From Hygrophila difformis (lineage: Eukaryota > Streptophyta > Magnoliopsida > Lamiales > Acanthaceae), in contig JAOANR010000003.1 in assembly GCA_030278955.1 (NCBI GenBank), positions 27,357,227 to 27,421,226 on the forward strand: a stretch of 64,000 nt of DNA, read 5' to 3'. Every line of letters starts with the position of its first letter. Within the stretch, counting starts at the first letter, position 1. The notes beneath the pieces were generated by a model that was not told where the DNA came from, ran no database searches, and saw only the letters and a program-made list of their open reading frames with translations. Made by a program: the position numbers and the translations under genes. Shown piece by piece: positions 17,548 to 39,297 of the stretch.

Positions 17548-20500
17548 TGAAGCTTTGAGGTAAAACCCCGCTGCAATGCCCCCCGACAGCCTTTACACTA
17601 TAACTCCCATAGGGCTGTTAAAAAGCTTGCCTAGTTTTTCCTACCGAAAGCGCACGGTATCAAGCTGCAATATTTATTTTTATTGTCGGGATCGTTCAAT
17701 AGAGAGTTACACGATAGAAGTGTTTTAATAGAATTATTAACTCTAGAATCTGTCTCTACTCTTGATTTAAGAATGTTGTAATGATGATTACTAAAGAATA
17801 CTGCTGAATGGTAAATGCTCAAAGCTTTAAACAGAGTAAAGAAAGCAATTAAAATGATGTCGAACATTATGGTTATATTCATGTGTTTAAAATGTCACGG
17901 ACCAAATCAAATGAAATAAGAATATGATGAGAATATCATACTTCATTGGCTAAAACATAATGAAAGTCCATTGAGATAGAAAAATCCTTTATACAACTTA
18001 ATCAAATCTTCATGTCTTAAATCACTTCCCAAGACAGGTACTTATGATTCAGTGTCATGACATTCTAAGCTCTGAAATCATGGAATACCATCATCACAGA
18101 ATGATCGGTCAGACTCTTTCTGTGATAAAAGCTCTTCAGAATTGTCACTTAATCTTTTTCTTTCAAACTCAGATTAAGACTTTGACAACTCGAGGTCACT
18201 TCTAAATCATACTATATTTATCTGAACTTGAAGTTGTTCTTTTTATTACTCTGATCAAATTGATCTTATGACCCTGTGTTGGATGTCCTCTACAATAAGT
18301 GAAAAAGCTAGTATTTAAATCTATCATCCAATGTCTTCATAAGACTTGTTTCCTCAGAGTAATTCCTGCAAGCATTCGTAAGGAATAATTGTCTTGTAAG
18401 TATATCAAGATGAAATTGCTATTCAAATTCCTTGACTTATCCAGACTACTCAGATTTGTATGAATGATTCAGCTCGAGAAATCTCTGTAAACAGTTCCAA
18501 ATATCCATGATTTAACTCAGGATTAGCAGACTGTAAGAGAAATATTTAATCTCCTACTCATAGCATATAGCGATAACTATAAGGCCATGAACCCTGGAAA
18601 TTAATCTTCCTGATACTCTACTAATTATTAGGACAAAAGATGGTTTTTGAAACATCTTTCCCTTTTAAACGACAGGTACTAAATGCCCAACTAAAGAACG
18701 AGTTTGTTCTTCATTAGTCCTGAGTAAATAATGATTGAGAAAACCTATATCATCATCTTTCTCAGTGTACCAGTTAATAATACGAATTGCAGATATGAAT
18801 TGTGAGTCTGTAATTATGAAGTAAGATTACTCATCATAGACTGGAAGTATCCCAAAATATTATATGTATATGTAATATTATATGTATAAAGAAATGTTGA
18901 GGGTTCTGAATCCTCTTAATCAAAATGCAAGGGTGTTTCCAAAATATACATCGGAAACTAGACAGAATTAGGAAATAACTTTCCCAAGAAAAATGATTTG
19001 AGAAATAATTCTGCAAAATAAATGTCCAAAGTAGCTCGCAGTAACTACTTTGGATTTCAAACTATGAACATTCCAATTTTCCGCATGCTATGTCTGTACA
19101 GCGTGGAGGGAGTTAATATTCAAAGAATGTTCCTCAGATTTTGTTTATACAAAGAACTGAATGCCTCGCGGTAATTTCTGTAAGAATGCGGCAAGGTACT
19201 CAATTCCTACTTATAGATAGGGGTTATATATGTATAAGAAGTAAAAGTGGATGATTGATACCCTGTAAAATGGATATCAAATCTATTGCTATTATAGATT
19301 GGTCCTCTCGCTTTGTCAGATTGACATCGCGTGAGTATTAGAATAGCCTTTGTCACAGCAGATCTATCTGGATATTTCCTCGCGTCATCTTTTAGGATGA
19401 AGCGAGGGTTTACCCTTATTCGAAGTAAATGATCAGAATTTATAACTGTCATAACTACCTTCTGGGATTTCCGTTTAGAAAATTATGAACATAGAATCTT
19501 TTGCATCCAAATTCATGAACTCAGAGCTATTGATTCTTAAAGATTATCAAGCGATGATTAACACTGCATGGGTCTCTAGGTACCTTTTAGAGTTCTGAAC
19601 ATTAAACGCTATGATTCTCTTTTGTGAACATAACAATATTGACAGAAATTCGAGTAAATTCATAATTCTGCCAGATCATACCTAACTCGATTACAATATC
19701 CAAACTTCTTGCGTAATTGGAACGAACAATTTACGAATTAAAAATGTGGAAGTGTTATGATCTTTGAGAATCGAATTAGAGGTATGATGCGAAATCCAAA
19801 TTGAATATCGGAGTTGAGGTTTATACTCTGCTGAAACAGAATTAAGAAATGGAAATGGAAACCAGAAAGATAAGAAATTCACAATCTGATAACTGATCAT
19901 TCTTCATGTATCTCAAATAACAAAGAATTAAAAACGAATACACCTGGAAATCTGATTGCTATCAGAATAATGCAAAGATGAACGAACAAGTCGGAAGTTA
20001 GATGATGATCGTCGTGATGGATGAACAAGCGATCCGAAAGCAACTCTCCTCCCAGGGTATCCTCAAGCTAATCTACAGCTAATCTTAAAGAAATCTACTA
20101 CGAAATCGAATTAAATATCTATGAAATCAAATTACAATTCTACGAACTCAAATTACAAATCTGAAGAACTCGAAGTAAATTGCAGGGAAAATTAAATCCT
20201 AACCTACCTACTAAACTCTAAAAAGTGGACTGGAGAGTAAAATCGAGCTATTCTCTTCAATCTCCCGCCTGCTGAGCTGATTCCCCCAAGGGTCTTATTT
20301 ATAGATGGGTGTTGTAACTGCTTGAGCCTTGGATGATAACCGCTCGCATCAGAATAACTCTCCTCTCGCTTTGTCCAGTTCCTTCAAAGCGAGAGTTCAG
20401 AAACTTAATCATCTTTCTCAACAAGGCGAGGTCCTTCAATTTCTACAAAGAATTTGCTTCTCGCCATGATGGATAAAACTTTCTGTCTTGCACAGATTTT

Positions 20501-20892
20501 CTTCCCTCGCGATGTCAAACAATCATCGCGTGGACTTTAGCATCTGCACATTTTCCTTAATCTTTTCCTGATTTCAAAAACAAGCCCTCGCACCATTCCT
20601 TTTCTTTCCTCGCTATGTCCTTTCCTCCTACTGCTGCTTTCCAGCTTAACTTCCTGATAAATGACAAAGCGTGGATCAGTTCAATAGAAACACAGCGTGC
20701 GAGACTTGCAAAGAAAACTTAGAATTTCAAGCCATTTTCAGTGTAATTCCAACTTCTTCACAATCTTAATTCTTCTTCCATCTTTTCTGATCCTCTATGA
20801 ATATTCATCAAAAATCAATGGAATTAAGAACAAAAGAACATGACTAAGACACTAAATTGGACGCAAATGACAGTCATAAAAGGCTGTCATCA
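17548..20892 (-). repeat. 3' LTR of the Athila-like element (plus-strand left)
   Basis: It runs from TGAAGCTTTGAGG to GGCTGTCATCA on the plus strand and matches 39298-42641 nearly base for base. A TATA box on the minus strand is at 20294-20304 (CTATAAATAAG). Many short inverted repeats built on CGCTTTG or CTCGC and their complements lie at 20340-20710 and 19080-19410. The short open frames in it occur in both LTRs and have no recognisable domain. Confidence 0.95.
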
Positions 20893-22072
20893 CCATCCTC
20901 ACATTTAGAAACACTTGTCCTCAAGTGGTAAGAAACTTGTAAAGTTTCAAAGAATAAGTCCAATTAGTGGCTTCTAGAATTTAGATGTTCATGTAAGATT
21001 CCACTGGATCACTACCTTCTCTTTTCCAGCCATCTCAAGCTCAACTCTTTCAACTGATTGATGCTTCATACCTGACTTTGAATTTACCATGTTCATGAAA
21101 ACATTAACAAAAGTGATTTGAATTTATGTGAATTATTGTTCTACTCCTTAGTTAGTCAGACTTTTCTTCTCACGCTCAATCCTGTCCAACTCATGTGCAT
21201 ATCTTGTATTCTTAAATGAAATACACTCTCTCTTTTTATCAAGGGGTGGCCTTCCGTGGCTTTCAATAGCTTGGTTTCACATTATTAGGAGGAGTCGCAT
21301 GGCCTGACATTGCAGATGAAACTTCAACTCCCCTGCCCTTGATTCTGTTTTTTTTTTTAAAGTTCTTCAACTTATAAATCAGAGGGGCAGCTGTGCCAGC
21401 TACTTATATCCACATTATTTTACCACGTCTGTTTCTGAAATTTCCCTTGCTCTCTTTTTCTCTCTTTTTTTTTTTTTCAAATATGCACACTCATCTTCCA
21501 AGAGAGACTAGATTAGATCAATCCTCTTAACCTTTTGCAGTTGTTGTTTATAGTATGCAAATCACTAAGATTAATATAATCATAAAACCTTCAAACTATT
21601 TATCCAGTAATGACATCAATCAATCTCAGGGCTTACAGCTAAAAACAGTTTTCAAGAGCGGCTCATGCTTGCAGTGAAAATCTATAAAGTAAATGTCTCC
21701 ACAGGAACCACTTTTAAACTCATCTTCTATTCCTTCATCAGTTTATTAGCCTCCCTGAGTTTATTACATTTTTTTTTTATATGATCCTAGCTTGAAATTC
21801 AATACTATGATACAACTTCATATTAATTCTATCCTAAGTTATATTAGAATGAATGGAAACATGAAAGAATTAAAGAAAAAGAGACTGCAATTAAAAAGAA
21901 GAAGAAGGTTTCAGAAAACTCCCCTGTGATCTCAGGATGGTCCTGCATCATTGTCTGGATCTTTGGGTGGTATGGATGGAGATTTCTTTAGATCCGAGAC
22001 TAGGTTGGCAAGGATGTCTACCAATCTCGTACTATTATACTGCTCCTGCCTCCTCAGCTCCATATCCCTTTC
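20893..22072 (-). other. 3' untranslated region and polypurine tract
   Basis: About 1.2 kb lies between the end of the env-position region and the 3' LTR. On the minus strand aatgtgaggatgg (20893-20905) touches the LTR and is the likely polypurine tract. Three long T runs on the plus strand (near 21350, 21466 and 21770) read as A runs in the element. No open frame of note. Confidence 0.7.
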
Positions 22073-23002
22073 TCATTCCTGTCTTCTTTCTTCAAGTTCT
22101 TCTCTTCTCAGCCTTTCAAATCTTTCCATCTCTTCCCTTCTCATTCTTTCCTGTCTATCCCATTCTTCCTTCCTTATCTGTTCTTGCCTCTCCATCTCCT
22201 CTTTCCTGAGTTTTTCCTCAGTTTGAATCCTGACATGCTCAAGTTCAATCCTCTTCTGCTCCATTTCTCTTTGAACATGCTTGTCTTCTGACATAGTTTT
22301 CACTAGCATCTCCATGGACTGTGCAAAACTTTGGATTGAAGTACTCATATTCTGAGATTTATCCACAGATACTGTGTTCCTCATTGGTTGTCTCAAAGGT
22401 TGAGATGGTGCAGAAGTGTTCTCAAACTCCTCATCCTCTGGAATAGGATTCAATGCAGGAGATGGAGTTACAGTCTTTGTCCTTTTTATTGCGGCTCTTG
22501 GCTGATATGATCTTGATTTTGAAGGAAGATTGACCCTTTTTGTCTTAGGAGATGGCACCTTTGATCCTGATCCCTCGGAAGTTTGTTCCTCTAAATCCGG
22601 CATTTGGTAAACCAACTCTCCCCTCAAAGTGTCTTCTGGTAATGGAATAGGAGGATCTATCTTTATGATCTCTGGTAAAAATGGTGTGATTGAAACTCCT
22701 TGTTTCTCACAGAGTCTTCTGATTAAATTTGGATAGGCCAATGCTGCATCTTCTCCGACTCTTGACTTAATAACATTGAGGACATGGTGTGCAGCACTGC
22801 ATTTCCTTCCTGACCATAATAATGCAAATCCCTCGAAAGTTCCGGCTGAAGGTCCTTGAAAATTTGTAGTGGGTCTGAGCTTTGAATAGTAGAAATCAAG
22901 TGTTGGCAGGTACTCAGGCTTCAAATTCTTCAATGGAATCTTATTCTGCTCAGTTCCTCTGTGTTGAACAGAATCCCAGTGCCATTTTTCTAGCATTAAC
23001 AA
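22073..23002 (-). pseudogene. Env-position region, C-terminal part (transposon-protein-like domain end and coiled coil)
   Basis: The true frame enters at about 22985-22989, an A run in which one extra base separates it from the upstream frame. It completes a domain resembling Pfam 'putative plant transposon protein': landmarks here are FEGFALLWSGRKCSAAHHVL, then YPNLIRRLCEKQGVSI. A Ser/Pro/Lys-rich linker follows, then from about residue 205 a very regular Glu/Arg-rich helix (EEMERQEQIRKEEWDRQER) to the stop, a strong coiled-coil candidate. No signal peptide or membrane segment is visible, so it does not look like a true envelope protein. Function unknown. Confidence 0.6.
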
Positions 23003-24089
23003 GTTTATTTCCTTGATTTTTCTTCCTCAAAAGAACCTCAGATCTGACTTCTGGCTGTTCTAACAAAGGTGCCTGTATCAGATCATTTAGAGTTTCTACA
23101 GTGACTTGCACTGTTTTCCCTCTAATCCATGTTGTTTCTGCCTCAACATCAAAGTTAGCATAGAACTCCCTGGTTAGTTCCACATAACCACATTTGTTAT
23201 TGTGTCTCATGAAAATGTCCCATTCATTGATCCTCGTCCAGTAGCTGATACACTTATGATCCAGCCACTTGGGATGAAATCCTTTGTCCGGAACAATCAT
23301 TTTGGACATCCCCAAGTAGTTCTCCAATGCCTCCTTTCTTCCATTAAACTTAACCTTGATTTCTTCTTCTGTGAATTCAGTCCTCTTTTCAATGCTATCA
23401 GGGATTGACAACCTCACCTTTGGACTATTCTTCCCCCAATAAGTTGAAGGTAGCAATTCTAGAACATCTTTTCCGGGGGATGATCCTTCAGACGTATCTG
23501 ATTCATTTCCATCGGATTCTTGTGCTTCTTCCTGCTCATCCCCAACATTCTCATTTCCTTCTTCTTCTGTTTGGCCTCCTTCTCGAGCAGGTTCCACGTT
23601 TTCTTCATGAACTTGTTCTGGGTTTTGTTCATGGTCAGGCTCTGGATGTTCTTCTTGAACTCTATCAGTGTCATCATATTGTGAATTGCCTATACCTGAA
23701 TCATGTATCAATGACGTGCTAGTATCTACCTTCTCAGTAACTTCCAGGCTATGCTGATTTAAGATCTCTGTGGGATCTTCCTGTACAGGTTCATTCAGTA
23801 GAAGAGGAATAGCAGTAGGTTCTGAATCTAGAAGTCCTTTGACTCCAAAATATTCTTCTACTTTCTTCTTCTGTTCTGCGGCCCATTCAGGATCATTCAT
23901 CCTTGCAATTGCTCTCTGAACTACTTCATCCCTGACTTGAGGTGGAAGGAGCCATTGATTCATTTGATTTTCAGCATTCGTCTGTGTTCTGAGATATTGA
24001 CTGACAGTGTCTTCTACAAAATATTTTCTCTGGTGAACTTCTTGAGTTTCATTCCTCTGCACTTCTTCTTCATAAGCTTGAAGTTCCAT
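22985..24089 (-). pseudogene. Env-position region, middle part with acidic stretch and transposon-protein-like domain start
   Basis: It begins at an ATG that overlaps the end of the preceding frame by about 20 bases. A charged N-terminal half has a very acidic region (about residues 125-205, rich in Glu/Gln/Asp with EEGNENVGDEQEEAQESDG). The second half has the start of the 'putative plant transposon protein'-like domain: LDHKCISYWTRINEWDIF, ELTREFYANF, then WIRGKTVQVTVETLNDLI. The domain continues in the next frame after a one-base change in the A run at 22985-22989. I infer one former coding unit with 22073-22988. Confidence 0.6.
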
Positions 24090-26526
24090 GCAAGTTCATA
24101 TCTTCAAAAGTTTGCAAATCTTCAAGTGACTGTTCCTGAAATGTGTCCGCCACTGATTTCTCAATTTGATTCACAAATTCTTGCTCATCTGCAGCTTCTT
24201 CTGGTGGTACATCTTGTTCAGTTTCTTTTTCTGAAAATCCTTGTAAATCAATCTGACTTTGAATAATATCTCTGTTAACCTGAGCTTGCTGATCTTCATC
24301 TTGCTCTTCTCTATCATCTTTTTCAGCAATCTGAACCTGTTGGAGATCAGTGCTCGGTCTAGTTGATCCTTGTTCATCAGGTTGATGTTCTTCAATACAT
24401 GCTCTCCAGCCCTCTGGATCTATATCCCCCACTTCCAAATTAGTATAAGGAGTGAGCTCCAACCTCTCTGTGTAGGGAACTATCCCTAGAGTTGGTTCGA
24501 CTTTTTCTTCTTCAGAACTGGTGTCAGGTACCACATACTTAGGCTTCCTGGCTTTCATCTTTATCCTGAATTTCTTAACAGGTTTTTCAGGTTCTTTTTC
24601 TTGTTGCTTTTCTTGCTCAAGAGTGATTTCCAATTGTTCTACATTCTCCAGAAAAGACCCTTGCTGCTTAAGTTCTTCAGGATCAGTTTCCTTCTGATTA
24701 GAGAGCAACTTTCCTCTCCTTTTATAAGTAACAACTTCTTTCTTTTCTTGGGCTAATTGTAGAATCTCAACATCTTCGTCCATCAAGTCCTTTGTCAAAT
24801 CCAAAATTTCCTTGGCTGCCAGGTCATCTCCATTTTTCCTCTTCTTTGGAATTCGGCTAGTCTCCTTAGATCTGCTTGTCTCCACCTTCCTCCCAGTCCT
24901 TTTCTTAGATATTGGTACTTCATCTGAAGTGCTCGAACTGAGATTGTGTGACTTTCTCTTTTTGGTGGATACTTTCTTTTTACCTTTCTTGTCTTGAGTT
25001 CTCATAAGTTCCTCCCATTCACGATCTGCCTTTCGTTTGTTTGCATAATAGCAATCCATACTTTCTTGCAGAATCGGATGAATTTCATTATTTTCCTCAT
25101 TCTTTTCTCCCACAATAGTTGTAACCTCATCAACTACTCTCATCTTCTCAATTCTTTGCTCATCATCTGTACTGTCTTCATCTGAATCGTGCTTCTTAAC
25201 ATAGAAATTCTTGCCCAATCCTTTCAGCATGATATTCATTCCCTTTCTATTCAGATATTTCTCATTCCATGCATCCCAATCATCAATAATTACCTGCTGA
25301 ATTCTTCCTTGTGTTTGATCAGTATAGGGTCTATGCTCCTTGTATGCATTTTCCCTGCACATAGCATCATACATGACATACTTCTCAATGAATTCTTTCT
25401 TCCTCTCTTGGACATATCCATGAACTTCCTGTTGGAGAGTTGGGGGTAATCTCTTCATGATCTTATTGGGTCTATCTGCAATGAGAAGATCTGCATCCGC
25501 TGGTGTTATTGATGGGGCTGAAACTTTTCTGAAATTCGCTACGGGTTCCAGTCCTTCATTAACAACTGATTCTCTGAAAATGTTCCTTACTATATTTTGT
25601 GGTGTCTGTTTTGCATCTGATCTCTGCTTCCTGTTTTTGCCTAATCTCTCAGCTTCTCTTTCCTCTGCATCCTTAATCCATGCTTGCTGCTCTGACATCA
25701 AATCAGCAAACTCCTCCAAAGGAAATTCCTCATCAGGTTTCCTTATCAACCCTGGTTTAAGAATCCTTTTCCTTAGATCTGTCCCTTTAGACCAGTTATT
25801 CATATACCTGATCCAGGTATTCCTAGCTTCCTGAATAATTCTAATGACATCTTTCCATACCATCTTACCTTGTTTAGCTTTCTTGAAATAAGGCTCTAGG
25901 TCATGCCTTAAGTTTATCCGAGCATCAATAATTCTATCAAGGGCCAGATTTGTCAAGAAATTATGTTCAACGGGTCCCTTCTTGTTCAGGAATGTTGGAG
26001 GCATGTATGCAGGGAGTGCCTGCTGAGCATCATAGACTCTAGCATTCCGGATTTCATTAAGTTTGCAGCAATATCTGGTGAGTCACTTCACATATTTTGG
26101 TAGTGGTTGAGGATCAAAGTAATCCAACTCCAGACCTGTTTGATCTTTCGGATTGATAATTCTGTAGCATTCCTGATTCCACTCAGCCATGCACTTCCTT
26201 TCCCTTTCCAAAAGTCTTTCCAGTCTGATTTCATTAGGCAGGTGCCTGTCATTGATCAGAATTATCATTTGATCATCCCAAAATCTATTTATCTTATTCC
26301 AGAATGCTTCTTCTAAATCAATCCTCAATGATTCCTTTTCCTTGTCTGGTATATGTTGAAACATGAATGGATTGATATAAAAGTCTGGAGGTGAAATTTG
26401 CATTCCTGTCCATCCACTACTTTTCCGAATAGTTTCTACCATGTTAACCGTTTTCGCCTTTGCCAAGAATGATTTCTCTTTCTTATCCGATTCTATACTT
26501 CAAGCTTGAAGTTCTTCATAGGTCAT
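24070..26526 (-). pseudogene. Env-position region, N-terminal part, highly charged
   Basis: One reading frame runs from the ATG at 26524-26526 to the stop at 24070, interrupted by TGA at 26500-26502 and at 26083-26085 of the plus strand. After the second stop it is open for about 640 codons. It is rich in Lys, Glu, Gln and Arg, with basic clusters around residues 340-400 of that open part (KKGKKKVSTKKRKS, KKRTGRKVETSR), which resemble nuclear localisation signals, and long acidic Gln/Glu stretches. I do not recognise the family. It overlaps the next frame with an offset, which could be a lost base or a real overlap. No membrane segment is visible. Confidence 0.55.
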
Positions 26527-26578
26527 CTTATGAATCCTTAAGAAACAAGAACAACTGGTAAGTTAGTGTCACCATACT

Positions 26579-26605
26579 CACATTTAGAGCTTGACTCTAA
26601 ATGTG
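26579..26605. repeat. Hairpin of the PPT-like repeat, copy 1
   Basis: Perfect 11-base arms cacatttagag and ctctaaatgtg enclose a five-base loop. On the minus strand the left arm and what follows it read ctctaaatgtgagtatggtga, close to the 3' LTR junction (tttctaaatgtgaggatggtga). Confidence 0.8.
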
Positions 26606-26678
26606 CAGATGATAAAAAGAAACATAATACCAGATTTCCTTTTTATATTCATCATTCTATCCATGATATCACCATACT

Positions 26679-26705
26679 CACATTTAGAGGTTTGCTCTAA
26701 ATGTG
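26679..26705. repeat. Hairpin of the PPT-like repeat, copy 2
   Basis: The same 11-base arms as copy 1 with a different five-base loop, starting exactly 100 bases further on. About ten flanking bases to the left are also shared. It lies between FB5 and the env-position region. Confidence 0.8.
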
Positions 26706-26859: not shown

Positions 26860-27607
26860 TTACAAATGAGGAGGTGTCTCTGCCTCAATTCCAAATCTGA
26901 GGAACAGATTACAATGCTCAGAGACTAAGCACCTCATACAGTAAATTGACACGACTCCATAGGTATTCCTTGAAGGACCGTGATTGTTATCATAATAGCT
27001 CCTAAGGTCACAAAGTCTCTTCTTGGGTTTTCCTTGAAAGGGTGAGATAAATTCCTCATAACTTGATAACCACCCTCTGACTTGAAGTCGAAGATCCTTG
27101 AGTCTTCGTCTATTCTTGCACAGAGGAGCGAAGAGCCAAATTCCCTTCTCTTGTTCTTCCCTTTCATCCTTACTTAAGAGCATAAGAGCTTTTACATAGA
27201 TGGATGGGGGGTGATTATCAGTGATTGCAGGTTTCAAGAGTTCAAATGCTGCTTGTTCATTCTTGTCTTTAACGAACAAACGCAATGCCTCATGTAACTG
27301 GTACATCCAATTTCCTGCATTTTTGCAGGTTTCAAGGAAAACGCTCTGTGTCTCTTCAAAAGTTCCCCATCCCCATGCTGAAAAGTCTTCAAGAGAAGCT
27401 TTTTTCAAGACTAAAGGATGATGAGTAGCTTTTTCGAGCTCTTTGCAGAGTAATTTACAGTTAAAGACAGTCTCAAGGTGGTCAAATGCCAATCTTGATA
27501 AAATGTTTCCAAGAATCTCATAAGGAAGATCTGTGATCTGAGTTTCCCCCGATCCAGATTTCATTATTGAAGTCCTTGGTTGCTTTGATGAAGTTCCAAT
27601 TTCATAG
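26860..27607 (-). CDS. FB5: F-box-like protein, second exon
   Basis: Exon 2 starts at 27607 after a good acceptor (pyrimidine-rich stretch, then CAG). Added to a 17-base first exon of the type used by FB2 and FB3 it stays in frame and gives about 254 residues. The F-box starts at ITDLPYEILGNILSRL. A helical middle follows with AAFELLKPAITDNHPPSIYV, resembling the Sel1-like tail of plant F-box proteins of the At2g35280 / At1g67623 type. Then come SPFQGKPKKRLC and a CMRC pair near the end. No first exon or TATA box is seen directly upstream, so it may be spliced from an upstream exon or be silent. The open frame itself is undamaged. Likely role by family: SCF substrate adaptor. Confidence 0.7.
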
Positions 27608-27770
27608 CTGAATAAGATTAAAAACAAAAATAGAATTAAAAACTAAAGAATGCAATTCATTAATCGAAGAAGGGATGTACAGTTTTGAATCATCCACATA
27701 ATTCTTTGTCCCAAGGCAAAAAGCACAAAAGATTACAAGCAAAGAAACTATGAACCGCTTAATTTCTAAA

Positions 27771-28524
27771 TCATTCTAATTCTAGCAGTTCTTCTTCATT
27801 CTGATCTTCCTCTCCATTGTTCCATTGCTCCCATTCAAATAATATGCCTAGTTCGCCACTTGCTCTTCTATATTGCTTGACATAATCAAACAGTTCACAT
27901 GGAATACACTCCATCCTTTCATTGAAAGGTAGTTGCTGTCGCTCTTGGATGGAGTGATTCTTACAAAAACTCCTTTCCTCTTGATCAAGGAATGGGTTAG
28001 GGAATTTTTCACCATAAAGGAGCCAGTGGAGAACACTCATTTTTAAGAATTAAAGTTCAAAAGGATCCTGAGTCACAGATTTGATCAACTGAATTCCTTC
28101 CTCATCCAGCTGTGGATCTTGTTTGGAAAGCATTAAAAGGGATCTTATGAAAGTAGTTGGTTTGTGTTTATCATCTAATCCGGGCTTAAGAATTTCATAA
28201 GCTTTTTCCTCATTTTTATCTTCCACAAAGGCTATCAATGCAGGCACAATATTAAACATATAATTGTCTGCATCCTGACATCTTTTAATGAATCTGACTT
28301 GGTTACTTGGGTAAGCATCTCCTCTCCAAACAGCACATGTTTCCAAATTAGCTCTCTTTAGAGCTAACGATGATCTGCTTGCTGAGTAGAATTGCTTAGA
28401 AGTTTCAAATGCTCTAAAGAGTGCCTTTATGCTCTCCGTTCCCAATCTTGACAGAATGTCTCCCAATAACTCAGTTGGTAAATCAAGTATTTGAGTTTCC
28501 AAGAGTTGAGGGTTTTCGACATTT
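27771..28524 (-). pseudogene. FB4: F-box-like gene, second exon with one in-frame stop
   Basis: It starts after an acceptor (TTCTTAG) at 28524 in the same phase as the other copies. The F-box is ILDLPTELLGDILSRLG; then KRCQDADNYMF, AYEILKPGLDDKHKPT, and after a TAA at 28050-28052 the same frame continues with FPNPFLDQEERSFC and CIPCELFDYVKQY. With a 17-base first exon the total is a multiple of three. It is clearly closest to FB2. The stop would remove the conserved Cys-containing end, leaving an F-box plus helical middle. No first exon, TATA box or upstream motif is seen between it and FB3. Confidence 0.7.
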
Positions 28525-28713
28525 CTAAGAAGAAAAGGAGGAAAAACACAGAATAAAGAGTTAAACTCAACATTTATGCAGTAATGAGATTAGATTTTAT
28601 TATCAAAATCAGGCTGCATTACATAATACAAAAGATCTGATCTAGTGACAGTTTCAAAGTAAAAAATTAGAAGACGTCACATGCATCAATCTCTTCCTCC
28701 TTCATCCAAAAAC

Positions 28714-29655
28714 TTATTCATTAATGCTATAGGTGTCATATTCCTCCCCTACTGCCATCCTAAAATCAGCTATGGCTCTATTTGTGTCACAGCAGAGATA
28801 GCAGACCTGATCGGCTGTATAGTTAAAGTATAATGGCCTATGGAAAGTTTCCTGATCATGAACTTCTATAATACAGAATTCCCTCTTTTTCTGCCCTAAA
28901 AATGGATTCGGGACATATTCCCATTCTGAAAGTAGGGTGAGAAGATTATATCGAAACTCATAGCTGTTTAATCTATCACTTAGAATTGGAATAATTAAGC
29001 AAAGTCCAGCATCTATCTCTTCTCTAGAAGTTCTACTTAAACAGCATAAAGCTTTAAAATATTGAGAAATCTTGAAGTTATCTTCTATTCCTTCATCCAG
29101 GATTTGGAATGCCTTGAATCCTTTCCCTTGTGTAAACAGTTCCATAGCCTTTGATAGATTCAGAATATGATTCTTAGCCTCTCTACAGGCATGTAGAAAC
29201 TTGATTTTACCAGTGGATTCATTAGAGATTCTTTTAAAGGCTGGATCCTCTACATTAAATCTCCGGAGAACAATAGGGTATTCTGAGACTATTGTAAATG
29301 TTGAACAGATTTGTTTGCACTTGAGCAAGTCTTCAAAGCTGCTCTGCCCTACTCGTGACAGAATCTCCCCAAGGACATCCAATGGAAGATCAGTCAGGTG
29401 TAAAGCAGAGGACTCAGAAGCCTGCTCCTCACTGTTATTTAATCGAATTTTAAAAGAAGAAAGATCAGTTAAAATTATACTCCAAGTTTTCTAATTAGGG
29501 AAGAATGAGAGTGGATGAAGAGAATTTGCACGAAATGAAAAAAACTTAAACCCTAGTATGAATAAAACACTATAATGCAGAATGTAACAGCTTGAAACAT
29601 CTGGAAGAAATGCGATGAAAAATGAACGGAGAGCTTACGGGTTGTTGCTCGCCAT
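28714..29655 (-). CDS. FB3: two-exon F-box-like protein
   Basis: Exon 1 is 29639-29655 (ATG, coding for MASNN plus two bases), the donor is GTAAGC, the intron is 207 bases, and exon 2 is 28714-29431 after an ACAG acceptor. The joined frame is open for 244 residues. The F-box reads LTDLPLDVLGEILSRVG. Then come FLHACREAKNHIL, FQILDEGIEDNFKIS, VPNPFLGQKKREFC and YLCC near the end. A TATA box lies at 29798-29808, about 143 bases upstream of the ATG, and ACAAAGCGAGG at 29975-29985. All coding landmarks are intact. By family it would bind SKP1 through the F-box and a substrate through the rest; the substrate is unknown. Confidence 0.75.
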
Positions 29656-29797
29656 TAGGATTGTTCCTGAAGTTGAATGATTCTGAAGAAGGGTTTCGCA
29701 ATGGAAGAAGAAGAAGAACTTAAAAATGGCGGTTTCTTCTCGAGAGAAAATATGAAAAGGTATGAGAATGATTTGAAAGGATAAGGAGGTTATAGGT

Positions 29798-29808
29798 CTT
29801 ATATAAAA
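29798..29808 (-). promoter_or_regulatory. TATA box of FB3
   Basis: TTTTATATAAG on the minus strand, about 143 bases before the FB3 ATG. A palindrome-type motif half, ACAAAGCGAGG, is about 167 bases further upstream. Confidence 0.6.
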
Positions 29809-30403
29809 CAATGGGCTGGCCTAGTTAAAGAATAAAGAGTAGGGTACTCAAGTATTTATTTAGATTGTACTCATTCATTCTAGACCTGCCACATCAGTGC
29901 GTCTGGTTATTGGTTTAAAAATTGAGTTTATAAACCCGAACAACCATGTATTGGCTAAAATTAGATTGGCTTAAACAAAGCGAGGGGCAAACATTTGAAA
30001 AGGATTAAGACTTCTAAATTGTATATTAAGTCTGGTTAAATCTTCTTCACCAAATTCATCTTAATGCCTAACAAAAATCTACCCTTAACTTCTTTATTTT
30101 AAGATTACCAATTCTTTCATCTCATTTCCTGATTTTACTTCCTCTTTTAGTCTGAAGAATATTCAGTGGAGTGTTTGATCTAAGTTTCCTCTGATCCAGA
30201 CTCCTTTGATAACATTCTCAGTTTCAAGAGAAACTTCCAGTTTCATCTTTAATTCATGTTTGAATTGAATAAAGAAACTGATCAAACAGGATAGAAAGTA
30301 GGGGAATTATAATACATAAAGTTTAAACGGTCCAAAATACATCAAAAGATTCCAGGAAATGCAAACATACATAATACTATAGAATTTCCTAGCTCTGGAC
30401 TGC
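29809..30403. other. Spacer between FB2 and FB3
   Basis: AT-rich and without an open frame of note. It holds the FB3 upstream region, including ACAAAGCGAGG at 29975-29985, and the presumed 3' end of FB2. Confidence 0.5.
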
Positions 30404-31502
30404 TCAAGGGTCAATTTCCTCATCATCGGAGTCGGTCCACATAAACTCATCAGGAAACACCTCACCACAATACAATCTAAACTGCCTCACCATGTCAAAG
30501 AATTGACAAGGGATACAGTCCATCCTGATGTGTGGTGGTAATAAGACTCGAACCTGCAAAGTATGATCCTTACAATAACTTTTCTCTGGTTGCCCTTGAA
30601 AAGGATTTGGGATTTGAGGAATATGGATGAGCCAATGAAAAAGGTAAAGTTTAATGAAAACCACTTCTAAAACATTAGAAGCTACTGTTTGGATCAACTC
30701 TAATCCTTCTTCAATCAACTTATCCTCTTGTTTTGTTAAGAGGAGCATCGTTCTGAGCAGAATAGTGGGTTCATGCCCATCATCTAGTCCTGGCTTGAGG
30801 AGTTCATATGCCTTCTTCTCATCTTGTTCCTCCACAAATGCCTTCAATGCAGGTTCAATGTTGAACATGAAGTTCCCTGCATTCTGACACTCTTGAATGA
30901 ATCTTTTCTGGTTGTCAGGATAAACATCTTCTCTCCATCTCATACATGATTCCAAGTCCACTCTCTTGTATACAAGATGAGTTTTGCTTGCTTGATAAAA
31001 TGATGGAGAGACTTCTGCTACCCTGAAGAGCTCTCTAACATTATCTTTTCCAATTCTTGACAGAATATCCCCCAACAACTCGGTGGGTAAATGAGTTATC
31101 TGAGTTCCAACACGCTGTGGATTCCTAGCATTTCTGTTTCCAGAAAATAATACGATAAGGAAAACAGGGGAATATTTTATCTAGAATGATGGAACCAGAA
31201 ATTCGAAAATGGGGTTTCATCCTATTGTGAAGTTCCAAAGGTCCCATTTGGATAATGCGTCAGTTACAAACTAAAGATTTCAGAGAAGACTCTCTGGATT
31301 AATGAGTGTAAAGAAACGGCTCTTAGTTAATGAGGAATCTTAAATGTTTAATGTTTCCGTTTTCTACAGCCATTCCCTGAAGAATATAGAATCATGAACC
31401 CTAGGTCTAGAAATGCAATCCGACAACAAACTTTGCAAAAAAGAACTAAAAATAAAAGAAAGATAGGATAAACTAGATTGCTTACGGATTGTTCTCAGCC
31501 AT
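30404..31502 (-). CDS. FB2: two-exon F-box-like protein
   Basis: Exon 1 is 31486-31502 (MAENN plus two bases), the donor is GTAAGC, the intron is 352 bases, and exon 2 is 30404-31133 after an ACAG acceptor. The joined frame gives 248 residues. The F-box reads ITHLPTELLGDILSRIG. Then come FIQECQNAGNFMFN, AYELLKPGLDDGHEPT, IPNPFQGQPEKSYC and CIPCQFFDMVRQF, ending in an acidic tail. A TATA-like box is at 31661-31673 and GAAGCGAGG at 31827-31835. No stop or shift is seen, so it could be expressed. FB4 is its nearest relative here. Family role: SCF adaptor; substrate unknown. Confidence 0.75.
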
Positions 31503-31660
31503 TTTCTTCGTCGATAGGTTTTCTGAATGATCTTGCTTATGAGAATGATTGAGAATGACAAAAATGGTGAATGGCGATTTCTTCTTGAATAAGAGAAGAA
31601 AATCTGATGAAAAAGTTTCGAAATGACAACTGAGAGGAATGACTACAAGGACAGAGACGC

Positions 31661-31673
31661 CCTATTTTTATCT
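31661..31673 (-). promoter_or_regulatory. TATA-like box of FB2
   Basis: AGATAAAAATAGG on the minus strand, about 160 bases before the FB2 ATG. The motif GAAGCGAGG lies about 154 bases upstream of it. Confidence 0.5.
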
Positions 31674-31896
31674 AAGGACTGCAGAGGTCAAGATAGTAAA
31701 TCTTGCTCTCTGCAGAGAGTAATGATTAAGCCTAGAATAAACCTATTTTGAAAATTTTATTTAAAATGACTCAGATAAAAATCTAATGCAAAAGATAAGA
31801 TCAAATTGTTTCCTTTTTGGAAGAATGAAGCGAGGAGTACATATCAACATCAAAGGACTTAGAATTTATATACAAATTAAGAGATTACATAATCAT

Positions 31897-32635
31897 TCAA
31901 TTTGAATCTGGATCAGTTTCTAATTCTGACTCAGATTCAATTACATGTTCATTAAAATTTTCTCTTAATCTCCTAATCAAACTAGTAACCTCACAACACA
32001 AACAATCAATGTTTGTGGCACCATAATTAAAGTGTGGAGGTTCCCTAACTAAGTCCCTACTATGTGGCGCTAAATAATCACAGTACTCGCGATGTCCTTG
32101 TCCCCGAAAGGGATTAGGCTCTTCTTCACTTTCGTTGAACAACTTGCTGATCTTCGCCTCAATCTTGCGAATATGATCTTCATCTTTAAGGATTGATCCA
32201 AGAAGATACAATCCTTCATCAATTTCTTCAAGGCTCTCCGAACTCAGAAGAATGAAGGCCTTGATAAAGATTGAAGGGTGATGGTTGTCATCGATTCCAG
32301 GCTTAAGGACTTCAAAAGCGGCTTCCTTGAGCCCTGTGTTGCAGAATCTCGAGAGTGCAGGTTCTAGTTTTAGCATGAAATTCCCCGCCTCTCTGCATCT
32401 TCGAAGTATTTGGACGTAATGAGAGTCAAGTGTCCTCTCTGCAGTCATCCGCCTTTCTACATTAGCTCTCCTCCATACTACAGGCGCCTTACTTGCTCTG
32501 GCGAACTTTTTGCAAGTTGGGGCTAACCTGGCTACATCCTTCATTTCCTCTTCCCAGCCTTGAGAGAATATCTCCCAAGATTTCATCAGGAATGTCTAGA
32601 ATGGATGTTCTAGCATTGGGAGCTGCTGCGGCCAT
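31897..32635 (-). pseudogene. FB1: intronless F-box-like gene with one frameshift
   Basis: The ATG at 32635 opens MAAAAPNARTSILDIPDE, which lines up with the spliced start of FB2 (MAENNP, then NARNP) but with no intron. The F-box continues to ILSRLG and the frame then needs a one-base change within about 32546-32556. After that the second frame runs to the stop at 31897 with CRREAGNFML-type and AAFEVLKPGIDDNHHPS segments, EPNPFRGQGHREYC and CLCCEV. Total length is one base more than a multiple of three. A TATA box is at 32715-32725. It is first in the F-box row after integrase. The shift may be real decay or a sequencing slip. Confidence 0.7.
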
Positions 32636-32714
32636 TCTGATTTCTGATAAAGGTTTTAGGATAATCTCTTAGGGAGGAAAATGTTTGAGATGAAAGAAGA
32701 TGAGGATTCGACTA

Positions 32715-33374: not shown

Positions 33375-34613
33375 CTAAGGATTATCCAAATATTCAGTTT
33401 GGATATTTAAATCTTGTTGACCAATATATTCCTTTAGCCTGTGTCCATTCACAGTCTTTTCTCCTTCATTGAGCATAATTGTAACTGCTCCATTGTCATG
33501 AACAGCTACAACAGGAAATGGTCCTGTCCACCTTGATCTGAGCTTACCTGGAAATAATTTCAAACGAGAATTATAAAGCAGAACCAATTGACCAACAGAA
33601 AATTCCTTATGTTTAATTTTTGAATCATGAATTTTCTTAGTTCGATCTTTATAAATCTTGCTGCTTTCATATGCTTCCAGTCTCATCTCTTCCAATTTAG
33701 ACAGATCAAACTTCCTCTTATCTTGTCCTGACTGAAAATCCATGTTGAGCATTTTAATGGCCCAATATGCTCTATGTTCTAGCTCAACTGGGAGATGGCA
33801 TGCTTTTCCAAAAACTAATCTGTAGGGAGACATTCCTATAGGAGTTTTAAAAGCAGTTCTGTAAGCCCATAAAGCATCATCTAGCTTCTTTGACCAGTCT
33901 TTTCTTGTGATATTCACAGAAGCTTGTAAAATGTGCTTGATTTCCTTATTAGATACCTCCACCTGTCCACTTGTCTGAGGATGATATGGTGATCCAACTT
34001 TATGATGAACACCATACTGCTTCAGTAATTTCTCGAAGAGTTTATTCACAAAGTGAGATCCTCCATCAGATACAATGGCACGAGGGGCTCCAAACCTGGT
34101 AAAAATATTCTTCTGTAGAAATTTAGTAACTTGTTTAGCTTCATTATTGGGTAAGGCTACTGCTTCTACCCATTTTGAGACATAATCAACAGCTACTAGA
34201 ATATAATGATTCCCAAAAGATGGGGGAAATGGTCCCATAAAATCAATTCCCCAAACATCAAATATCTCTACTTCTAAAATCCCTTTTTGAGGCATTTCTT
34301 CTCTCATTGAAATGTTTCCCAGTCTTTGGCATCTGTCACACATCTTTATAAGTTTCTGGGAATCCAAAAAGATAGTTGGCCAATAAAACCCACAGTCTAA
34401 AACTTTTCTAGCAGTCCTAGCAGGACCATGATGGCCTCCGAAAGGGTTCTCATGACACTTTCTAACAATTTGGAAACCTTCTTTTTTCATGAACACAGCG
34501 CCTAATAACCTGATCGGAACAAAACTTGAATAAAAAGGGGTCATCCCAATAGTATTTCTGAATTTCTCTGAAAAATCTTGACTTCTGATGAGAGTCTTTA
34601 AACTTTGGGACAA
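33375..34613 (-). pseudogene. pol: Integrase of the Athila-like element
   Basis: The productive part begins near 34487, where an extra base in a T run (34482-34487) separates it from the RT frame. It has the zinc module ([11 protein letters not shown] to CDRCQRLG), the core with catalytic acids in [24 protein letters not shown] and [15 protein letters not shown], and an Athila-type C-terminal region ([28 protein letters not shown]). Length and motifs are normal for the family. Apart from the frame change it looks intact and ends just before the internal purine stretch. Confidence 0.92.
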
Positions 34614-37600
34614 TCTTGCAAGCTAGATAATTAGCAAAATCTGAAAACCAAGGACAATCAAATTGATGCAACTGCAAAGCATACAATTGTTCATCTGGAA
34701 ATTTATCATTTACAACTTCATCCTTCTCTGTTTTCTCCTCCAATCTAGAAAGATGGTCTGCTACTCCATTATCTTTTCCTTTTCTATCCTTGATAATAAT
34801 GTCAAATTCTTGTAGAAGTAAAACCCATCTTATCAGCCTCGGTTTGGCTTCTTGCTTTGAGAAAAGATATCGTAATGCAGAATGATCTGTGTAAACTATA
34901 GTTTGGGCTCCAATAAGATACTGTCTGAACTTGTCAAAAGCAAAAACTACAGCATACATTTCCTTTTCTGTAGTAGTGTAGTTTATCTGAGCATCATTAA
35001 GAGTATGACTAGCATAATAGATAACATGATGTTTGCCTTCTTTATGTTGCCCCAAAACTGCTCCTACTGCATTCTCACTTCCATCACACATAAGCTCAAA
35101 GGGTAGACTCCAATCAGGAGACTGAACTATAGGTGCAGTGATTAATTTCTCCTTCAAAGTCTTAAAAGCTGTCAAACAATCTTCATCAAAGCTAAATGTC
35201 ACATCCTTATGAAGAAGATTACATAAAGGTCTTGCTATCTTAGAAAAATCCTTAATAAACCTTCTATAAAAACCAGCATGACCAAGAAAACTCCTTACTG
35301 CCTTAATTGTTTTGGGTGGTGGTAGATTTGCTATTACAGAAACTTTAGCCTTGTCTACTTCTATTCCTGCTCTAGATACTTTATGTCCTAGAACAATTCC
35401 TTCCTGAACCATGAAATGACACTTTTCCCAATTAAGAACTAGGTTAGTGTCCTCACATCTCTGCAAAATTTTTGACAAATTTTTTAAAGAATCTTCAAAG
35501 TCAGTTCCATGAACAGTAAAATCATCCATAAACACTTCAATGCATTTTTCAATAAAATCAGAGAAAATACTCATCATGCATCTTTGAAACGTAGCAGGAG
35601 CATTACATAATCCAAAAGGCATTCTTCTATAAGCAAATGTTCCATATGGGCAAGTAAAAGTTGTTTTCTCATGATCCTCACTAGCAATTACTATTTGATT
35701 ATAACCTGAATAACCATCTAAAAAGCTGTAAAATGGTTTACCTGACAGTCTTTCTAACATTTGATCAATGAATGGTAAAGGAAAATGATCTTTTCTTGTG
35801 GCAGTGTTTAATTTTCTATAATCAATGCAAACTCTCCAACCAGTTACTGGTCTTGTTGCTACTTCATCACCATGTTCATTGGTCACAATACAAATCCCAC
35901 CCTTTTTGGGTACAACTTGTGTTGGACTCACCCATTTACTATCAGAGATAGGATAGATTATACCTGCATCAAGTAGCTTGATTACCTCCTTCTTGACAAC
36001 TTCCTGCATTGGTGGATTTAGCCTCCTTTGTGGTTGTCTGGACGGTTTGTATTCATCCTCCATCAGAATCCTATGCATACAAATGTGTGGACTGATGCCT
36101 TTGATATCTGCTATAGTCCAAGCAATTGCCTGAATATGATTTTTAAGAGTACCTACTAGAGCTTGTTCTTGTTCTTTACTCAATTTGGATGAAATTATTA
36201 CCGGAAGCTTCTTTTTGTCTGCCAAAAAGGCATACTTAAGATGTTCTGGTAATACTTTAAGCTCAAGCTCAGGTGGATTTTCTATTGATGGAATTAATTT
36301 GCTTCGAGTTTGCACTTCCATCTTTAAATCAGATCCTTCATCAGAAGGGTCTGTTTTATCAATGTCATCCTCAGATTGCTCTGAAGATGGCATATCCTCA
36401 CTTTCTGATCCATCCTTGATTTCACCAGTCTCAGGATCAGCGAATCTAACCGCGCACAAGTAAGCAAAAGTAGCATCTTTAGCATTTGTGAGTGGGGTGA
36501 GATTGTTCTCAGTTACATCAGTAGTAAAGAGATTATAGTAATAAAAAAGATTTCCCCCCTCCATAGTACTAGCATCTAATTCCTTCCCCGCTACATTGGT
36601 TTCAAAAGCGTTAAAAGGATATGTTGACATCTTCATCATGTCGAAAGTGACCTCGTGGTTATCAACATGAAGTTTCACTATGCCATTCTTTGCATCAATC
36701 ATGGCTCCCGCAGTCACCAGAAAAGGCCTCCCTAATATGATAGGAATTCTAACATTTTCGTCGATATCAAGAATGACAAAGTCAGCTGGAAAACAAAGGC
36801 CTCCTGTCTTTACTATAACAACTTCAATGATCCCTTCTGGTCTGGTGCTCGATTGGTCAACAAAGAAGAGGGTCATATTAACTGGCCTCATCTTTCCCAA
36901 ATCCAAACGTCTCGCCATGGCAAGTGGCATTACATTGATGCTGCTTCCTAAGTCACAGAGTCCTCGCCCAGCTTCTTTACAGTTGATAATCAGAGGTAAA
37001 GTGAAACTCCCTGGATCTTCAAGCTTTGGAGGAATCCTTTGTTGAAGAACCAAGCTACAATTTTGATTTAAGACCACCATTTGCTGCTCTCCTGCACTTC
37101 GTTTCCCTGAAATTAATTCTTTCAGAAACTTAGCGTAAGTGGGCATTTCAGCAATTAATTCAACCAAAGGGATTGATATTTCAATGGCCTTAATCTTTTC
37201 AAGAAGTTTCTTAAATTTAATTTCTTGAAGATCGTTTTTGAGTCTCCCAGGATATGGTATCCTGGGCATGTGTTCATCCAGTGAATCCTTTTTGTTACCT
37301 GTAGAGTTAGGATTATCATTACCTCCCTCTTTTTCCTTCGGAAAGGAATATCCTGAGACATTCTTTTCCAAACCCTTATCCTCAAGTATCTGTCTTTGTT
37401 CAGGGTTATCATCTTCTTCCATTGTTTGAACATCCTTGAACTTTTTCTGCTGCAGCAACCTATCTCTTTTCTTTTCAAATTCAGGATCAACAACCTCTTT
37501 TCCTCCCCTCAATGTAACTGCCTTACATTGTGGGTTTGTTTCAGAAGAACTTGGTAATTTTCCTTTTTCTCTCTGCTGTAGTAATTTGGCCATCTCTGTT

Positions 37601-37920
37601 ACTGAATTCTCAACATTCTTGATTGAAGCCTGCAGTTGGTTATTCGTCTCCGTCTGCTTAACAATGAACTCCTTCAGAGCATTCTCCACCTTTAAAGAGT
37701 AAGTATTATCTTGGGCAACAGGATAAGGTTGTTGTGGAAAGTTCACCGGGACTGGTGCAAACTGTCCAAATGGCCTATTCTGTTGGTTCATCTGTTGGAA
37801 AGGTCTCTGTGGGTACATCTGTTGTTGTGGATAAAATGGTTGTGGAGGACGAAACTGCTGCTGATTTTGTTGTTGTGGGTTCAGAAGATGATGCATTTTG
37901 TGCGTTCTGAGTATTACCAT
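34488..37920 (-). pseudogene. pol: Gag end, protease, RT and RNase H of the Athila-like element
   Basis: A long open frame of about 1150 codons. It starts in the Gln/Pro-rich end of gag, which overlaps the gag frame at 37775-37920 with an offset. The protease has the Athila form CDLGSSINVMPL (about residue 320). RT shows VCIDYRKLNTATRKDHFPLP, YSGYNQIVI and the catalytic VFMDDFTVHG. RNase H shows LMCDGSENAVGAVLG, TTTEKEMYAVVFAF and YTDHSALRYLF, then KGKDNGVADHLSRLE. All catalytic landmarks are present. The frame is lost at the T run 34482-34487 before the integrase zinc module. Confidence 0.95.
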
Positions 37921-39184
37921 AACTCAGATTCGGGTGTTTATTCTGAAATCCGGTGTAGTTACAACTCTCATCTTGCTTTGGGGCTTCCTGAATTTGTGGA
38001 CACTGATCATTGTGATGTGGCCCTGAGCAAATTCCGCACTGATACACCGGTTCCATTGGAGCAGGTTGAAGGATCATCACTGGTTGCTGTTGTTGTTGAT
38101 GCTGTTGATTTGTTTGCTGAGCCAACTGTAGTTCAGCAATCTGCTTAGTGAGTGCTGCAAATTTCTCTTCATTCTTGTCTGTATGGATGACAAGACTCTT
38201 TCTGGTAGGAGATGGTGGATCATCATCTTGGAGGACTGCTCTGCTAGCTGTCATGGTGTCTATTGTTGACCACGCTCTATCAAGTGGCATCTGAAGTAAT
38301 TGTTCCCCTCCAGTGGCATTAATCATCATCTGCCAAGTGTGAGTGAGTCGAGTGAAGAAGATCTTTAACAGTCTTCTTTCTGTTATGCCATGCTGTGGGC
38401 ATCTCTTAAGCATGTCAAAGAATCTGTCCCGAGCATCCTGCAGAGACTCTCCTTTTCTCATCTTGAAACTAGGGATCTTGTCTACCCACTCATCTACTTT
38501 GCTTTCAGGAAAATACTTGAGTAGGAAGTTCCTGACTAATTCTGGCCAAGTAGCCTTCTGTTGAGCATTCAATGAATCATACCATTCTTTCGCTGAGCCA
38601 TCCAGAGAGAATGGAAACATAGCCAATTGAATGGTTTCCCTTGAGGCTCTTCCTTTCTTCACTGTCTTACTTAGTTCAACAAACTTTTTGAGATGTAAAT
38701 GTGGATCTTCAGCACTCATTCCATAAAAGGCTCTAGACGATGCTAGGTTTAATATACCAGGCGGTATATCAACCTCCTCATCCGTTCGAGCCAAATATTG
38801 ATCGACATTAGGCTGCCATGGGTGATATTGCTCTTCTTGAGGATTCGGAACAGGATTAGCAAAATTTGGTGGAAAATAGTGTTGATGAATAAATTGTGGT
38901 GCAGCAGCCCTCTGCGGTGCTTGAAAAGGTCCTCGAAGTGGAACATTTTGCTGATTATCTGGTTGTCCGTTTGGTAAGTTTCCAGGTCCGTCATTCTGTC
39001 CATTGTTAGCCATCCTAGTTATGGTTGAAAGATTTCCTTCTGCAAGATCTCTCTGTCTCCTTCTTGCACTTGCTCTAATCAGCCTTGCTGTTCTCTCAAG
39101 TTCACAATTAAAAGGAAGCAAAGGTGGTCTTGAAGATCGAGTTATTCTCTCGCTCATAAACTGTTGAGACTTCTCTGTGAACAA
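37775..39184 (-). CDS. gag: Gag of the Athila-like element
   Basis: About 469 codons. After an Arg-rich start there is a Pro/Gln/Asn-rich stretch, then the Athila capsid core (MSAEDPHLHLKKFVELSKT, ETIQLAMFPFSLDGSAKEWY, ATWPELVRNFLLKYFP) and a zinc-binding motif CGICSGPHHNDQC. Near residues 430-440 the reading passes into the other frame, where the normal gag C-terminus continues (Gln/Pro-rich). The last 35 or so residues here, rich in Thr and Ser, are probably out of frame. Either a base was lost or gag and pol are joined by frameshifting; single-frame gag-pol is usual in Athila. Confidence 0.88.
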   Translation of the reverse strand: MFTEKSQQFMSERITRSSRPPLLPFNCELERTARLIRASARRRQRDLAEGNLSTITRMANNGQNDGPGNLPNGQPDNQQNVPLRGPFQAPQRAAAPQFIHQHYFPPNFANPVPNPQEEQYHPWQPNVDQYLARTDEEVDIPPGILNLASSRAFYGMSAEDPHLHLKKFVELSKTVKKGRASRETIQLAMFPFSLDGSAKEWYDSLNAQQKATWPELVRNFLLKYFPESKVDEWVDKIPSFKMRKGESLQDARDRFFDMLKRCPQHGITERRLLKIFFTRLTHTWQMMINATGGEQLLQMPLDRAWSTIDTMTASRAVLQDDDPPSPTRKSLVIHTDKNEEKFAALTKQIAELQLAQQTNQQHQQQQQPVMILQPAPMEPVYQCGICSGPHHNDQCPQIQEAPKQDESCNYTGFQNKHPNLSYGNTQNAQNASSSEPTTTKSAAVSSSTTILSTTTDVPTETFPTDEPTE

Positions 39185-39279
39185 AATGAAAGAATTTATG
39201 AATTTATTATGGTGTAAAGTAAATAATTACAATTAAACCAAAGAGTATCTACAGTTCTAAAATTCATAACGCTACACGA

Positions 39280-39297
39280 TCCCCGGCAACGGCGCCA
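39280..39297 (-). other. Athila-type primer binding site
   Basis: On the minus strand TGGCGCCGTTGCCGGGGA directly follows the 5' LTR. This is the primer site form typical of Athila elements. Confidence 0.92.

Follow-up and report, generated by a model that had tools for sequence, protein, structure and literature searches.

Five related F-box-like genes, FB1 to FB5, form a row inside a long terminal repeat (LTR) retrotransposon of Hygrophila difformis that is probably of the Athila type. The complete element lies on the minus strand at 17548-42641 (25,094 bp) of the window, as we call the whole stretch of 64,000 nucleotides that was analysed (contig JAOANR010000003.1 of assembly GCA_030278955.1, positions 27,357,227 to 27,421,226). 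The F-box block is a standing, multi-copy part of this element lineage, within which its proteins are kept by purifying selection. We give a probability of about 0.62 to the reading that the block is a stable accessory F-box/TPR_27 cassette serving an Athila-type lineage, likely by providing substrate receptors of SCF (SKP1-cullin-F-box) ubiquitin ligases directed against host factors.

The F-box genes of the window copy

FB1 to FB5 all lie on the strand of the element, inside 26860-32640 and between the integrase and the 3' open reading frame (ORF) region. This agrees with the original prediction, made from the letters of this stretch, of five related genes between integrase and an env-position region on the element's own strand. 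The five genes are mutually similar by tblastn, with best E-values per pair of 2e-19 to 2e-84. The row, including a relic gene, is composed as follows.

26860-27607, minus strand: FB1, exon 2 type, acceptor at 27608-27610, F-box, TPR_27 and Cys end, in-frame ATG at 27564
27771-28524, minus strand: FB2, exon 2 type, without ATG before the F-box, in-frame stop in the window copy only (of 21 copies)
28714-29655, minus strand: FB3, exon 1 at 29655-29639, intron at 29638-29432, exon 2 at 29431-28714
30155-30246, minus strand: relic downstream of FB4, with weak similarity to the FB1 5' part (small search, E 1e-5)
30404-31502, minus strand: FB4, exon 1 at 31502-31486, intron at 31485-31134, exon 2 at 31133-30404
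31897-32635, minus strand: FB5, single exon, F-box and TPR_27 (below cut-off), frameshift in the window copy

Pfam analysis at E<=1 detected F-box-type and TPR_27 (PF23310) matches in FB1, FB2, FB4 and FB5. For TPR_27, FB1 alone is over the cut-off (49.5 against 27, E 3.8e-13). F-box starts, helical middles and Cys-containing ends had been predicted for all five genes. The C..C end is indeed present in all five and the helical middle is common to all, but the F-box exceeds its curated cut-off only in FB1 (21.1 against 20.5, PF00646), FB2 (21.4 against 20.5, PF00646) and FB4 (25.6 against 24.3, PF12937), the matches of FB3 and of the frameshifted FB5 being below it. The AlphaFold model of FB4 (pLDDT, the predicted local distance difference test, 67.8; five-row alignment) contains a helix run consistent with an F-box and TPR-like repeats.

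Copies of the block in the genome

The genome of the plant itself (915 Mb, 246 contigs) was searched with the block as query, and the best 27 of 968 candidates were scored. This revealed 29 matches; at least 21 of them, window included, are full length, with identities of 96-100%, and are spread over 12 contigs. Four partial matches are located on C13, C231, C2 and C140. Twenty copies with 1.2-kb flanks were compared with the window (21 in all), namely 18 of the other 20 full-length copies and two relatives of 90-92% identity. The end of the integrase, the gap, the five genes and the start of the 3' ORF are contiguous in 18 of the 20. In L012 and L018 the match is interrupted between integrase and FB5, at window positions 32975 and 33031, and the integrase parts are found about 5 and about 11 kb off with overlaps of 12 and 6 bases, as nested insertions would give.

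A query spanning the boundary between integrase and FB5 matched over its whole length at 36 of 40 scored places (best 40 of 2516 candidates). Because this query favours members that bear the block, the integrase protein was also used alone, with the best 101 of 27114 candidates scored. FB5 was present at all 20 integrase places ranked straight after that of the window, where 600 bp were read downstream (70.5-96.5% nucleotide identity). Among the matches listed, 42 or more of the 101 integrase places are followed by a TPR_27 match in the same orientation, 4.1-8.5 kb downstream, and none of the 101 has one within 12 kb upstream or on the opposite strand. An Arabidopsis integrase query, used as contrast, led to another lineage (best 87 of 27697 candidates scored), and the downstream pieces covered at its eight top places contained no F-box similarity.

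The original prediction had proposed a search for the block in other copies of the element. Other family members at other loci do bear it between the integrase and the 3' ORF region, and the target duplications differ between loci where both ends are readable (CTAGC, AGGAT and ATACC). Both ends were found for three of ten further copies, one being flanked by AGGAT and the other two, as a pair, by ATACC. This pair, at C7:25528000-25576000 (ends in L033, L034, L037 and L038), appears to share its middle LTR with ATACC outermost, and would seem to be a three-LTR array.

The block could also be a local accident, in which host DNA was inserted later into one element copy. Nothing in favour of this was left after the genome search, and it is ruled out, for practical purposes, by the dispersed copies with an intact integrase-FB5 junction: at least 21 full-length copies stand at dispersed loci, and FB5 stands at 20 of 20 further integrase places. 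In addition, no terminal inverted repeat (TIR) or direct repeat clearly beyond shuffles was found at the block edges. The best inverted match with one mismatch there is 15 bases long, against at most 14 in 30 shuffles, and two hairpin-plus-CTRR hits are uncontrolled.

At fifteen of the 101 listed integrase places the surrounding open frame is exactly 1951 codons long, with a stop listed inside one of them; members with a long unbroken gag-pol frame therefore exist, and we infer recent activity of the element family.

Open frames and purifying selection

Relative to the frame of the window, no stop or frame change was detected in FB4 exon 2 in 17 of 21 copies, in FB3 in 15, in FB1 in 17, in the first part of FB2 in 18 and in its second part in all 21. 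In 17 of the 20 other copies, FB5 can be read from its ATG through a full frame of 246 codons, and all 20 differ from the FB5 frame of the window. The FB2 stop of the window is found in none of these 20. With one nonsense change and one indel seen against 0.8 and 2.2 expected at the LTR rate, the lesions in the FB genes of the window fit decay since insertion. Genome-wide, all of the best 150 TPR_27 matches scored (5039 candidates) exceed the cut-off, and 119 of them are in open frames whose length, exactly 260 codons, is that of FB1 in the window.

Nonsynonymous (N) and synonymous (S) variants were counted over all FB genes in the 21 copies, and N/S is expressed relative to the neutral expectation; the copies are related, so that the p-values are not strict. 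Variants common to at least two of the 19 main copies (S 93, N 46) give a relative N/S of 0.17 (p 7e-25 against neutral), and the differences common to the two relatives of 90-92% identity (S 81, N 51) give 0.21 (p 2e-18). Singletons, which are mostly post-insertion, amount to S 128 and N 179, with a relative N/S of 0.47; the shared and the subfamily values are both lower (Fisher p 8e-7 and 2e-4). By gene, the subfamily values range from 0.04 in the first part of FB2 to a maximum in FB3. The controls reached 0.97-1.82 in shifted frames, 0.99-2.18 in antisense frames 0 and 1, and 0.82-1.11 in the non-coding parts of the block. Antisense frame 2 looks constrained too (0.33 and 0.37, singletons 0.66), because the third positions coincide. 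Singleton counts of the integrase C-terminal part are invalid, since L012 and L018 hold unrelated sequence there. Between FB5 of one reference member and that of 19 others, the synonymous divergence (dS) is 0.06-1.78 and the ratio of nonsynonymous to synonymous divergence (dN/dS) is 0.06-0.25; the FB5-frame comparison of L057 with L063 is saturated. CpG depletion is common to the block and the ORFs of the element, but is only suggestive.

Strong purifying selection in the lineage means that the element seems to gain from the FB genes. Plants commonly have F-box genes in tandem clusters, and this, together with the relic gene within the block, would suit a cluster of host genes that was captured once, long ago, and travels as a passenger of no use to the element. 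A passenger moving by retrotransposition only should decay, and the constraint contradicts this: relative N/S is 0.17-0.21 against 0.82-1.82 in the controls, and the low dN/dS of FB5 holds at dS up to 1.78. As the N/S tests with frame and non-coding controls, the open frames and the many copies all rule against decay, we consider a passenger very improbable. Little weight is likewise given to an element that mainly spreads F-box genes for the host, with selection on the host side. Retroduplicated and LTR-borne F-box genes described for Thlaspi (PMC8764390, in the portion considered) speak for it, but the constraint is found in variants common to dispersed copies that retain the integrase and/or 3' ORF neighbourhood.

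Exons and splice signals

FB3 and FB4 start with a first exon of 17 nt (ATG...CC), followed by GTAAGC and a phase-2 intron, and this donor is kept in both genes in 21 of 21 copies. FB5 has no intron at precisely this site. FB2 and FB1 begin with a splice acceptor that lies 189 and 163 bases, respectively, past the stop of the preceding gene, and no in-phase (phase-2) ATG-to-GTRAG first exon was found directly before either of them in any of the 21 copies. The description of the family as intron-containing thus holds for FB3 and FB4, with a complete intron each, but not for FB5, and FB1 and FB2 have an acceptor without a recognisable first exon. The first ATG of FB2 occurs only at codon 89, and shared plus subfamily variants in the part before it amount to S 11 and N 8, where about 2.7 N per S would be expected under neutrality. 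Since FB1 and FB2 lack a recognisable first exon of their own and the pre-ATG part of FB2 is constrained, an upstream (shared leader) exon is likely joined to their acceptors.

Structure and class of the element

The other features of the element, in window coordinates, are the following.

17543-17547: target site duplication CTAGC, left copy (sequence read)
17548-20892, minus strand: 3' LTR, 3345 bp, TG..CA ends (LTR pair comparison)
20890-20909, minus strand: polypurine tract (PPT) and start of the 3' LTR, TCTAAATGTGAGGATGG followed by TGA (sequence read)
22073-24095, minus strand: 3' ORF region, whose PF20167 match (putative plant transposon protein) is under the cut-off and spread across two frames in the window copy (Pfam)
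24070-26499, minus strand: 3' ORF region, long open frame, one in-frame stop in the window copy (ORFs)
26569-26688, minus strand: two copies of the PPT/LTR-start motif, 100 bp apart, directly downstream of FB1 (motif search)
33375-34622, minus strand: integrase (rve, Integrase_H2C2; Pfam)
34462-37923, minus strand: reverse transcriptase and RNase H frame (Pfam and ORFs)
37775-39226, minus strand: gag (Retrotrans_gag; Pfam and ORFs)
39277-39297, minus strand: primer binding site, TGGCGCCGTTGCCGGGGATCG (sequence read)
39298-42641, minus strand: 5' LTR, 3344 bp, TG..CA ends (LTR pair comparison)
42642-42646: target site duplication CTAGC, right copy (sequence read)

Both LTRs and the CTAGC on either side of them were read, as had been predicted. 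The LTRs are 99% identical, with 26 substitutions and four indel events (Kimura two-parameter distance, K2P, 0.0078). At substitution rates of 1.3e-8 to 7e-9 per site and year, the insertion would be about 0.3-0.6 million years old. The two LTRs are 18.4 kb apart. The primer binding site is presumably of a tRNA-Asp type.

The domain order gag, reverse transcriptase, RNase H, integrase is that of Ty3/gypsy elements, with which the TG..CA LTRs and the 5-bp target duplication also agree. A single RNase H region is located at 913-1040 of 1153, followed by the integrase, and no additional RNase H precedes the integrase. Such an additional domain between RNase H and integrase marks Ogre and Retand (PMC6317226, in the part consulted). 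The Athila ORF-1 domain PF03078, which is reported in 16% of Athila elements and is not required, had no Pfam match in the element. The gypsy element is probably of the Athila type. The frame at 24070-26499, about 800 charged codons upstream of PF20167, gave no Pfam match over the cut-off.

The window contains three occurrences of the PPT/LTR-start motif, one at the 3' LTR and two just after FB1, against 0.05 expected, and the internal pair is kept in 21 of 21 block copies. Each internal copy adjoins a short hairpin. The pair might serve as an internal primer for the plus strand, or it might be a scar left by an earlier 3' end.

Further repeats are present in the window around the element. At 1012-17159 a gypsy element (LTRs at 1730-4398 and 10253-12916, 97.5% identical) is nested in a copia element, whose repeats at 1012-1285 and 16883-17159 are 96% identical. 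Frames of the long interspersed nuclear element (LINE) type are found on the minus strand at 45053-50626 (RVT_1, zf-RVT). Two tandem 1.7-kb repeats at 54500-57943, 92.6% identical, are partly like the LTR of the gypsy element at 1730.

Age and origin of the block

The FB paralogs are old, with a dS of at least 1.8, mostly saturated, and a ratio of nonsynonymous to synonymous differences (pN/pS) of 0.38-0.70. The deepest member read, C13:35834305, has the order FB5-FB3-FB2-FB1. Its FB3 is 69% identical (dS 1.09, dN 0.19), its FB1 87% over the 157 codons compared (dS 0.77, dN 0.06) and its FB2 73-79% (tblastn). The 654 unread bases between FB5 and FB3 are partly FB5 itself and offer no room for FB4. 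FB2 and FB4 are 52-56% alike, less than FB2 across the deep member, so that their split is older than that of the deep member and FB4 was probably lost there.

Genome-wide PF23310 matches are mostly FB1-like, with one odd match at C10:34089231 (best 150 of 5039 candidates). This locus (L079, C10:34088700-34089900) contains a TPR_27 match with 29% identity to FB1 over 55 residues, no element DNA in 1.2 kb, and an apparent intron inside the TPR region that is absent from the FB genes. It is a possible host relative of the FB genes. The original prediction that a host F-box gene was captured and then amplified was tested in part: the paralogs are as old as stated, and this distant gene is the only TPR_27 gene read outside element DNA. 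The block may once have been inserted into an ancestral element; insertion by a DNA transposon or Helitron was rejected, as at the block edges neither a TIR nor a direct repeat clearly exceeds what shuffles give. No relative was found in a viral contig set with the integrase-side frame as query or in a genome contig set with the FB alignment as query, and Rfam gave nothing at the gathering threshold.

Proposed role of the F-box proteins

The FB5-FB4-FB3-FB2-FB1 cassette multiplied together with the element, and its proteins were under selection in the element lineage. From their domains, the FB proteins would most likely be substrate receptors of host SCF ubiquitin ligases, with the F-box docking on SKP1 and the TPR-like helices and Cys-containing end binding the target. 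The likeliest targets would be host factors that restrict the element, and several paralogs may correspond to several targets. FB3 and FB4 each have a first exon, and FB1 and FB2 would most likely be expressed through an upstream exon spliced to their acceptors. The genes would derive from a host TPR_27 F-box family. More tentatively, and with odds somewhat against it, the block can be seen as a retrovirus-like accessory cassette with a shared leader exon and alternative last exons, each F-box protein marking a factor of host defence or of chromatin for degradation, selected over deep lineage divergence.

Another explanation is that the FB genes are accessory to the element's own cycle, where F-box proteins would govern the turnover or nuclear entry of Gag or integrase rather than act on host defences. 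The same constraint data agree with this, as does the fixed position and sense of the block relative to the integrase. Several divergent paralogs of old split are better explained by an arms race or by multiple host targets than by one internal target, although weakly so, and we regard an own-cycle role as unlikely, with perhaps one chance in a few.

Several observations weigh against a cassette of SCF receptors directed at host factors. The constraint is also compatible with a function in the cycle of the element itself. The deep member has no FB4, so that not every paralog is indispensable. Four of the five genes are under the TPR_27 cut-off of 27 (FB2 26.5, FB4 26.9, FB5 22.6, FB3 no match), and Foldseek found no significant match for the FB4 model (best E 0.56). 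FB3 is the least constrained gene, at 0.47 for subfamily differences, a few close FB5 pairs have a dN/dS of 0.36-0.44, and the test of the FB2 part before the ATG is based on just 19 variants. In a set of 5.8 billion proteins, which does contain plant integrases, no relative was found of the FB alignment at 1e-5 or of FB1 at 10 by a search that needs exact shared words.

Comparison with known systems

Large gypsy elements of 25 kb in Phalaenopsis carry an ORF for a 2-ODD (AlkB) demethylase of N6-methyladenosine (m6A), and are similar to the present element in having a host-type extra ORF, in being multi-copy and in keeping this ORF through replication rounds; a part in the contest with host surveillance was proposed for them (PMC9289625, as far as consulted). 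Those elements have one enzyme gene, whereas five paralogous F-box genes, two with introns, are found here. The screen of 121 angiosperm genomes in the same study names PMD, G-patch, AIR1, 2-ODD and others, and F-box does not occur in its main text (the full domain chart, in the supplement, was outside the scope).

Sense ORFs between pol and the 3' LTR also occur in Athila and other plant elements, which resemble the present one in position, strand, long LTRs with spacers and a 3' ORF region, but their most prominent extra domains are Athila ORF-1, plant mobile domain and Transposase_28 (PMC7264820, PMC6317226, in the parts consulted). F-box is absent from the main text of PMC6317226 (Additional file 4 was outside the scope), where the cut-off of 250 codons for extra ORFs means that exons of FB length would be missed. 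Giant retroelements are alike in size and extra ORFs; the inter-LTR stretch is rarely above 10 kb according to a review (PMC6431247, in part), against 18.4 kb here, and F-box does not occur in that review. Among the 672 and 1,343 LTR-captured genes catalogued in rice and sorghum there are likewise host genes within LTR elements, some expressed and some under purifying selection (PMC3726574); in the main text of that paper F-box does not occur and a multi-gene F-box row was not seen. No report of F-box genes carried by Athila elements was found in the literature searched by title and abstract start, with supplements and closed papers outside the scope.

Plant-virus F-box-like proteins that act on silencing are precedents, and Polerovirus P0, an F-box-like silencing suppressor, is also coded by a mobile agent of plants (PMC6593998, in the part consulted). 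P0 is a virus protein, likened here by description and not by sequence. To our knowledge, P0 has no TPR_27 domain.

Significance

The extra genes of plant LTR retrotransposons mostly have no assigned function and are often taken as passengers; here they are likely a ubiquitin-ligase adaptor set that is a standing part of a high-copy lineage. Counter-defence coding by plant retrotransposons becomes directly testable via the binding partners of the FB proteins, and element copies can inflate F-box gene counts in such genomes.

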